Shown piece by piece: positions 42,101 to 45,100 of a stretch of 64,000 nt of DNA; positions within the stretch are counted from its first letter, which is position 1, and each line of letters begins with the position of its first letter. Source of the DNA: Salvelinus alpinus (Eukaryota; Chordata; Actinopteri; Salmoniformes; Salmonidae); assembly GCF_045679555.1 (NCBI RefSeq), contig NC_092120.1:10582305-10646304 (forward strand), in the 5' to 3' direction. The notes beneath the pieces were generated by a model, which did not search any database, was not told the origin of the DNA, and worked only from the letters and a program-made list of their open reading frames with translations. Position numbers and translations under genes: made by a program.

Positions 42101-45100
42101 TTAACATGCATGAAGCCAAGGCTATTACGGTTACAGAAGTCATCAAAAGAGAGCGCCTGGGGAATAGGAGTGGAGCCAGGTACTGTAGGGCCTGGATTCA
42201 CCTCTACATCACCAGAGGAACAGAGGAGGAGTAGGATAAGGGTACGGCTAAAAGCTATGAGAATTGGTCGCCTAGAGCTACTAGAGCAGAGAGTAAAAGG
42301 AAGTTTCTGGGGGCGATAAAATAGTTTAAAGGAATAATGTACAGACAAAGGTATGGTAGGATGTGAATACAGTGGAGGTAGACCTAGGTATTGAGTGCTG
42401 ATGAGAGAGATATTGTCTCTAGAAACATCATTGAAACCAGGTGATGTCATCGCATATGTGGGTGGTGGAACTGAGAGGTTGGATATGGTATAGAGAGCAG
42501 GGCTAGAATCTCTACAGTGAAATAAGCCAATAAACACTAACCAGAACAGCAATGGACAAGGCATATTTACATTAAGGAGAGGCATGCTTAATCGAGTGAT
42601 CAATAAGGGTCCAGTGAGTAGAGGTTGGTTGGGGTCGTGGCGATCCAGACAGCTGGCCGGGTATATGGCTATCGGTAGCAGCATAGGATGGAGGTCTGTT
42701 TGTAGATACCTCGTGCGTTTCCGTCGGTAGGTTAGTGGGGTTCCGTGTAGTGGGGTTCCGTGTGGTAGAGGGGATCAATCCAAATTGGCAAAATAGATAT
42801 AGTGACCCAAGGAAAAAAATAAAATAAATAAATAATAATAATAATAATAGTTGTCCGATATACTTGTTCAGATAGCAGCCGATAAGACAGCTAACGATTA
42901 GCGGGCCTCAGATGAGCGTTCAGGTAACGTCGGGACGGAGGTGCCAGTTGGATAAATCCCTCGGGCAGATAACGTCGGCAGTCAGTCGCGGCAGTCAGTC
43001 GTGAAGGCCCGGTGGGGTTCCGTATCTGCAGCAGCAACAAAAGAAACGGGTCCGGATGGTGATGGAACTCCTCAGCTGGCTAGCTCCAGAATGATTTGAG
43101 TTTGCTCCGGGGTCGACGTAAGCCAATAGTCACACGGTTTGCAGCTAGCTAGCTGCGAAATCAAGGTGCAAGTGTCCAGAGCCTGCGGCTGGAATCCGTG
43201 GAAACTGAGAGAAAAAAAGTCCCGGAATGCTCCGGTCCGAGTCGCGTTGCACAAAAGTGCCGGTAGATTATCGAGCTAAAGGAATAGCTGATGACCACAA
43301 AACGTGGGCAGCTGAAACACCAACGCTAGCCAGCAAACCGGCTAATTTCGGGGCAGCTACAGATTAGCTTCTGGCTAGCTATCGGAGTAGCTTCTGGTTA
43401 GCTTTCAGGCTAGCTTCTGAATTAGCCCCTGGCTAGCTTCCACGATGGATTTTCAGATTGAGGTAAATAATACTTTTTGTAATTGGTGAAGCGGGTTGCA
43501 GGAAAGCTTTTGCAGGAAAGCTTTTGTAGTTGAGTTCTTGGATAATAAAATAAATAAAAGATATGCGAAGAAAGGTGTAAATATATATATATACAGGACA
43601 CGACAATACGGAACAGAAAAAGACGTCTGAACTGCTAAGCCACCTTGGACGATATGATGGGGTCTAAAACCAGACTGATCAACAGCTTTTAATTTTTTTT
43701 TTGAGAGGAATGGGAGATTCGATATAGGCCGATAGTTTTTGATATTTTCTGGGTCAAGGTTTGGCTTTTTCAAGAGAGGCTTTATTACTGCCACTTTTAG
43801 TGAGTTTGGTACACATCCGGTGGATAGAGAGACGTTTATTATGTTCAACATAGGATGGCCAAGCACAGGAAGCAGCTCTTTCAGTAGTTTAGTTGGAATA
43901 GGGTCCAGTATGCAACTTGAAGGTTTATCGGCCATGATTATTTTCATGATTGTGTCAAGAGATATAGTACGAAAACACTTTAGTGTCTCCCTTGATCCTA
44001 GGTCCTGGCAGAGTTGTGCAGACTCATGACAACTGAGCTTTGGCGGAATACGCAGATTTAAAGAGGAGTTACGTAATTTGCTTTCTAATGATCATGATCT
44101 TTTCCTCAAAGAAGTTCATGAATTTATTACTGCTGAAGTGAAAGCCATCCTCTCTTGGGTAATGCTGCTTTTTAGTTAGCTTTCCGACAGTATCAAAAAT
44201 ACATTTTGGATTGTTCTTATTTTCCTCAATTAAGTTGGAAAAATAGGACGATCGAGCAGCAGTGAGGGCTCTTCGATACTGCACGGTACTGTCTTTCCAA
44301 GCTAGTCGGAAGACTTCCAGTTTGGTGTGGCGCCATTTCCGTTCCAATTTTCTGGAAGCTTGCTTCAGAGCTCGGGTATTTTCTGTATACCAGGGAGCTA
44401 GTTTCTTATGACAAATGTTTTTAGTTTTTAGGGTTACGACTGCATCTAGGGTATTGCGCAAGGTTAAATTGAGTTCATCAGTTAGGTGGTTAACTGATTT
44501 TTGTCCCCTGACGTCCTTGGGTAGGCAGAGGGAGTCTGGAAGGGCATCAAGGAATCTTTGGGTTGTCTGAGAATTTATAGCACGACTTTTGATGATCCTT
44601 GTTTGGGGTCTGAGCAGATTATTTGTTGCGATTGCAAACGTAATAAAATGGTGGTCCGATAGTCCAGGATTATGAAGAAAAACAATAAGATCCACAACAT
44701 TTATTCCATGGGACAAAACTAGGTCCAGAGTATGACTGTGGCAGTGAGTAGGTCCGGAGACATTTTGGACAAAACTCACTGAGTCGATGATGGCTCCGAA
44801 AGTCTTTTGGAGTGGGTCTATGGACTTTTCCATGTGAATATTAAAGTCACCAAAAATTTGAATATTATCTGCTATGACTACAAGGTCCAATAGGAATTCA
44901 GGCAACTCGGTGAGGAACGCTGTATATGGCCCAGGAGGCCTGTAAACAGTAGCTATAAAAAGTGATTGAATAGGCTGCAAAAATTTCATGACTAGAAGCT
45001 CAAAAGACGAAAATGTTGCGTTTTTTTTTTGTGAATTGAAATTTGCTATCGTAAATGTTAGCAACACCTCCGCCTTTGTGGGATGCACGGGGGATATGGT

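Follow-up and report, generated by a model that had tools for sequence, protein, structure and literature searches.

A recently amplified, single-ORF, APE-type LINE of Salvelinus alpinus carries an in-frame 2A (StopGo) motif that is maintained by purifying selection. Judged from its sequence, the motif is likely to be a working 2A peptide, which would yield a leader protein and a free endonuclease-reverse transcriptase (EN-RT) from one ORF. We analysed one copy of this element within a 64-kb stretch of the char genome (the window, meaning the whole of that stretch) together with copies elsewhere in the genome. Features of the window copy are listed in Table 1.

Table 1. Features of the char LINE, in window coordinates.
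Feature	Position	Strand	Basis or remark
LINE element, whole	38845..43650	-	~4.8 kb; blastn vs 29 other copies
5' leader, 966 nt, without ATG and without ORF1	42685..43650	-	ATG count vs shuffles
Single ORF, 1129 codons from Met1, no stop	39295..42684	-	ORF scan
Met34 (42585) and Met41 (42564), starts common to subfamilies; A at -3 in both	42562..42585	-	Copy comparison
Hydrophobic signal-like segment, residues 41-58	42511..42564	-	Kyte-Doolittle
Whole 2A block, residues 140-166	42187..42267	-	Identity and dN/dS vs L061
2A core DVEVNPGP, residues 159-166	42187..42210	-	Match to D(V/I)ExNPGP; break expected Gly165/Pro166
APE-type endonuclease domain, residues 195-391	41512..42102	-	Pfam PF03372, E 8.8e-08
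Reverse transcriptase domain, residues 689-930	39895..40620	-	Pfam PF00078, E 2.3e-32
3' tail inverted repeat GTAAATGAGAACGTGTTCTCAA	38894..38915	-	Seen in sequence

A 2A motif ahead of the LINE enzymes

The degenerate pattern D(V/I)ExNPGP matches the 64-kb window once and none of 100 dinucleotide shuffles. As the original prediction held, the match lies in frame in the 1129-codon ORF behind a Leu-rich run; the residues just before the core are LLLLCSSG. DVEVNPGP agrees with the published StopGo core (D/G/C/N)(V/I)ExNPGP, and a Leu-rich run ending in (A/S/C)G before the Asp is a recurrent StopGo upstream context (excerpts of PMC12846837). By analogy with this class of motifs, the break would fall between Gly165 and Pro166. 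The same excerpts describe motif 6, one of two likened to the Leu-rich class, as active in reticulocyte lysate. To the eye, the char hexapeptide LLCSSG resembles that class. It is close to the viral LLLLSG class in these excerpts, sharing a Leu-rich stretch that ends in Gly before the Asp at p12, but is not identical with it, which counts against a working 2A: the char run ends in CSSG, and p15 is Val instead of the associated Ser.

Downstream of the 2A the ORF encodes an APE endonuclease and a reverse transcriptase (PF03372 and PF00078), and its best PDB match, over query residues 541-979, is a LINE-1 ORF2 protein (E 1.2e-12). This is the arrangement of domains expected of a 2A LINE. With the motif standing between the leader protein and the endonuclease, the ORF is laid out as predicted, such that its products would be an N-terminal protein and a separate EN-RT.

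The element is full length, young and nested

The 5' ends of the compared copies fall at 43649-43657 in window coordinates in 21 of 29 blastn alignments and the 3' ends at 38841-38849 in 24 of 29. The copy ends thus coincide with those of the window element, which is therefore full length at about 4.8 kb. The other 29 top copies differ from the window copy by 10-18 nt per 3387 nt and therefore point to recent amplification; together with the open 1129-codon frame, this low divergence supports the earlier claim of an intact young LINE. A TAA at codon 449 (41338-41340), in a T-run/A-run, is present in eight of the 30 best copies (L007, L011, L015, L016, L017, L018, L023 and L024) and absent from 22, and among the matches listed one TAA occurs in 9 of 41 copies. 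It seems that either copies with a broken enzyme frame were amplified or this tract mutates often.

An older LINE of the same orientation encloses the 4.8-kb LINE. In a limited test of the two element flanks, no target duplication of at least 6 nt was found. The older host LINE spans 43651-46551 and 38173-38840 (-), with endonuclease and reverse transcriptase fragments recognised by Pfam at 44069-45130 and 38173-38757. It has a separate upstream frame at 45817-46491 (-), which looks like an ORF1 and has no Pfam match; the only 2A match of the window falls outside this frame.

The inverted repeat in the 3' tail is the sole exact match among three window matches with at most 3 mismatches (chance mean 0.01), and we take its role to be that of a 3' recognition hairpin. 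The host repeats are presumably of fish type and the LINE 3' tail of the RSg-1/HpaI type of salmonids. A putative assignment to the L2 clade would rest on this tail. RSg-1 is paired with HpaI SINEs in salmonids in a table of PMC3747384, whose passages give no sequence.

The motif recurs across the genome beside the endonuclease

We searched the Salvelinus alpinus genome (2.37 Gb, 928 contigs) with the degenerate D(V/I)ExNPGP pattern, leaving x free. It matched 5345 times and the reversed pattern 7 times; these counts and the failure of all 100 window shuffles rule out a chance occurrence of the motif. The free position is Val in 5152 of the 5345 matches (reversed control 0), and its codon starts with A, C or T in 95 (reversed control 1). 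Among the 100 matches listed, x is Val in 98 (GTA 37, GTT 35, GTG 26), Ala in one and Gly in one.

The endonuclease motif, searched for independently with a pattern of its own, gave 5134 genome matches and none when reversed. The first 100 endonuclease-motif places, all on contig C1, were compared with the listed 2A places. In 80 of these 100 a 2A place lies 40-200 nt upstream; 77 of the 80 pairs are spaced by exactly 81 or 99 nt, and in 78 the spacing is a multiple of 3. Conversely, 79 of the 92 2A places listed in the same range adjoin an endonuclease motif. The original prediction had named full-length copies without NPGP as the finding to speak against it, and on this point the outcome is divided: the 80 listed places with a 2A favour it, and the 20 that lack the exact pattern upstream, which may be decayed copies or a 2A-less lineage, count against a working 2A. 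Likewise, an older copy beside L015, which came to light independently of the motif, reads GDVEVNQGP, and its NQGP counts against it too.

Four 2A matches in which the x codon does not start with G lie ~8.47 kb apart at G000:C3:20045073-20070504, which suggests a tandem array.

The 2A block is under purifying selection

The motif is kept in 30 of the 30 top-scoring copies, which were picked by similarity. We rejected these near-identical copies as evidence of selection, as they are too young and similarity-picked. The first 30 genome 2A matches (L031-L060) retain an 11-residue string of the 2A block unchanged in 25 loci. The changed runs before the core in the remaining five count against a working 2A: the run is lost in L042, contains Pro in L050 and has an altered Cys in L038, L049 and L039. 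Among loci picked for unusual codons (L062-L066), the run is kept in L062, L064 and L066 and lost or broken in L063 and L065.

Selection was measured on one pair, the window copy and L061, which belongs to another subfamily and agrees with the window copy at 920 of 1090 aligned residues. Residues 140-158, which were not used to find L061, are identical at 18 of 19 positions with a dN/dS of 0.10. The core (159-166), which was used in finding L061, is identical at 8 of 8 positions with 0 nonsynonymous and 3 synonymous differences. Elsewhere in the ORF the ratio is 0.34 across residues 34-139 and 0.31 across the linker; the two enzyme domains have 0.10 (endonuclease) and 0.07 (reverse transcriptase). 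The residues upstream of the core thus have a dN/dS of about 0.10, like both enzymes and against 0.31-0.34 in the flanks, and the 2A peptide is therefore under purifying selection. This comparison between subfamilies is the check that had been proposed for the motif, and its outcome is positive for the 19 upstream residues.

A second pair, L054 and L056, comes from the same two subfamilies, so that the pairs are not independent. Its nonsynonymous differences number 66.2 per 239.5 sites in the N-terminal part, 2.0 per 58.5 in the 27-codon block, 8.2 per 56.8 in the linker and 27.5 per 436.8 in the endonuclease. These raw counts point the same way as the first pair.

Start codon, 5' leader and leader protein

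The 966-nt 5' leader contains no ATG, where 300 dinucleotide shuffles have a mean of 10.8 and a minimum of 4, and its reverse complement has 9. A separate ORF1 has no place in it, and the window copy has the single ORF of the 2A-bearing APE-type LINEs. The ATG-free leader fits with scanning to the first ATGs. Against its being a general trait, the other-subfamily copy L061 has ATGs at distances of 267, 244, 240 and 12 nt upstream of the Met34 equivalent, counted within 900 nt. A leader stretch of ~107 nt (42757-42864) aligns without a break in 3 of 29 compared copies (L004, L010 and L014) and is interrupted by a gap in 24; two others (L013 and L015) end short of it.

Ile takes the place of Met1 in L034, L054 and L060, which are closely related to the window copy, and copies of other subfamilies have in-frame stop codons upstream of the Met34 equivalent. 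Met1 is thus probably not the conserved start, which would be Met34 or Met41 instead, and on the Ile and the upstream stops we rejected the 1129-codon count as a mark of the true start. To compare start codons we took the window copy and 36 loci and kept those in which an MPC/MPR methionine is open to the 2A; this left 20 distinct sequences and omits truncated, frameshifted, interrupted and duplicate loci. The Met41 equivalent is present in 20 of the 20 by construction and the Met34 equivalent in 19, L041 being the one without it.

The N-terminal region was said to be 165 residues long and hydrophobic. It does precede the motif and the endonuclease. The length probably falls with Met1, as the upstream product would then be 125 residues (Met41-Gly165) or 132 (Met34-Gly165), and the hydrophobicity is confined to two stretches, residues ~41-58 and ~140-157, the second inside the 2A block and some 80-100 residues from the first. 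After Met41 the 15-residue Kyte-Doolittle mean reaches 2.15 in the window copy, and its maximum is 1.51-3.47 in the 20 kept sequences, though the sequence itself varies. A signal-like segment at the common N-terminus, from Met41 on, is plausible, in addition to the Leu-rich run within the 2A.

Proposed mechanism and alternatives

An active StopGo in this LINE is likely from the sequence. The ribosome would start at Met34 or Met41 and synthesise the leader protein; the nascent 2A chain would then stall in the exit tunnel and the leader would be released after Gly165. Translation would resume at Pro166 and give a separate EN-RT of 964 residues with a clean N-terminus. The sequence shows the motif, its place, the domains and the purifying selection; we infer this ribosomal event, its two products and a signal origin of the leader, which would be a signal-bearing protein or have evolved from one, so that the EN-RT must be freed from it.

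The conservation of the block could also be explained if ribosomes read through it, so that the EN-RT is made as a fusion and the block serves to anchor the protein hydrophobically or to assist its folding. Residues ~140-157 are indeed hydrophobic, and such segments can be kept for membrane insertion; a membrane segment, however, would need no NPGP core, and Val is retained at the free core position in 5152 of 5345 matches. Moreover, the linker after the 2A differs in length and sequence among subfamilies, as expected for separate proteins, and we regard read-through as improbable. Still less credible, indeed very hard to sustain, is a chance resemblance spread by a recent burst of transposition. 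The 29 best other copies are so close to the window copy (10-18 differences in 3387 nt) that their agreement alone proves nothing. The core, which had served to find them, is common to the older copies L061, L062 and L064-L066, 73-83% identical to the window copy over 160 residues. The free position and the residues ahead of the core, neither of them part of the search pattern, are retained in L061, L062 and L064. Synonymous differences, where counted (L061), the dN/dS values and the prevalence of Val all speak against chance.

A signal-like N-terminus raises the question of where the products go. An N-terminal signal combined with incomplete StopGo could split the product between cytoplasm and secretory pathway, as in the sea urchin NLR proteins, and this can be true together with StopGo cleavage into leader and EN-RT. 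A hydrophobic segment directly after the common Met in all 20 kept sequences fits such dual targeting, and 2A-like signal sequences have a precedent in the parts of PMC4981915 consulted. The sea urchin uses one 26-residue peptide for both functions, however, whereas the hydrophobic segments here are separate, and it is hard to see what use a reverse transcriptase would have for ER targeting. Judging the signal from hydropathy, we consider dual targeting rather unlikely. Slightly more doubtful still is that the LINE encodes, from the ORF of its EN-RT, a small secretory or membrane protein freed by StopGo, with the signal-like segment at Met41 and the second hydrophobic segment at residues 140-157. 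If true, the 2A would allow a retrotransposon to produce, from a single start codon, both an accessory protein routed to the ER and an enzyme for the nucleus.

Relation to known 2A systems

Odon et al. (2013, Mol Biol Evol 30:1955) reportedly described 2A sequences among the APE-type LINEs of multicellular organisms, in the Rex1, Crack, L2, L2A, CR1 and Ingi clades, where the 2A is said to correlate with a single ORF. The char LINE resembles these elements in having an APE endonuclease and a reverse transcriptase after an in-frame 2A near the N-terminus, in one ORF rather than two. It differs in the youth of the family, its thousands of genomic matches and the purifying selection measured on it, its 2A activity being predicted, and in its leader, which would comprise 125-132 residues and carry a hydrophobic segment of its own at the N-terminus. 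Likewise, the trypanosome L1Tc, for which a 2A is said to have been reported by Heras et al. in 2006, has the 2A in frame with LINE enzymes; we take it to differ in host lineage and LINE clade.

Some LINEs of the L2 and CR1 lineages are apparently single-ORF in the passages of PMC4120745. StopGo motifs are described as very rare in cellular coding sequences and absent in mammals (PMC12846837, 2026, in its excerpts). According to sections of PMC4981915, sea urchin NLR proteins carry a 26-residue peptide that serves as both signal and 2A. The char LINE shares with them a 2A-like peptide near the N-terminus and a signal-like hydrophobic stretch; theirs are N-terminal peptides of host genes, whereas the char 2A is internal, with its signal-like segment ~80-100 residues upstream.

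Both the presence of 2A in APE-type LINEs and the link of 2A to signal sequences are thus already published. Leaving aside the taxon range of Odon 2013 and Luke 2014, we found no description of a 2A in a fish LINE in titles and abstract openings. What is new is a well-supported further 2A LINE for which the evidence of selection is unusually good and the leader is the one part left to explain. The 5345 2A matches, under purifying selection, offer a natural replicated set of variants for asking why single-ORF LINEs use StopGo and what role the leader has.

Other features of the window

A KIAA0319 N-terminal domain is encoded at 33875-34612 (+) (Pfam PF23597, E 9e-21). Frames at 21908-22935 (-) match an endonuclease/phosphatase family weakly in Pfam and look to us like TDP2 exons. 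Transposase fragments at 18032-18508 (-) and 30623-31093 (+) match Pfam DDE_3 and HTH_Tnp_Tc3_2 and are presumably of the Tc1/mariner type.
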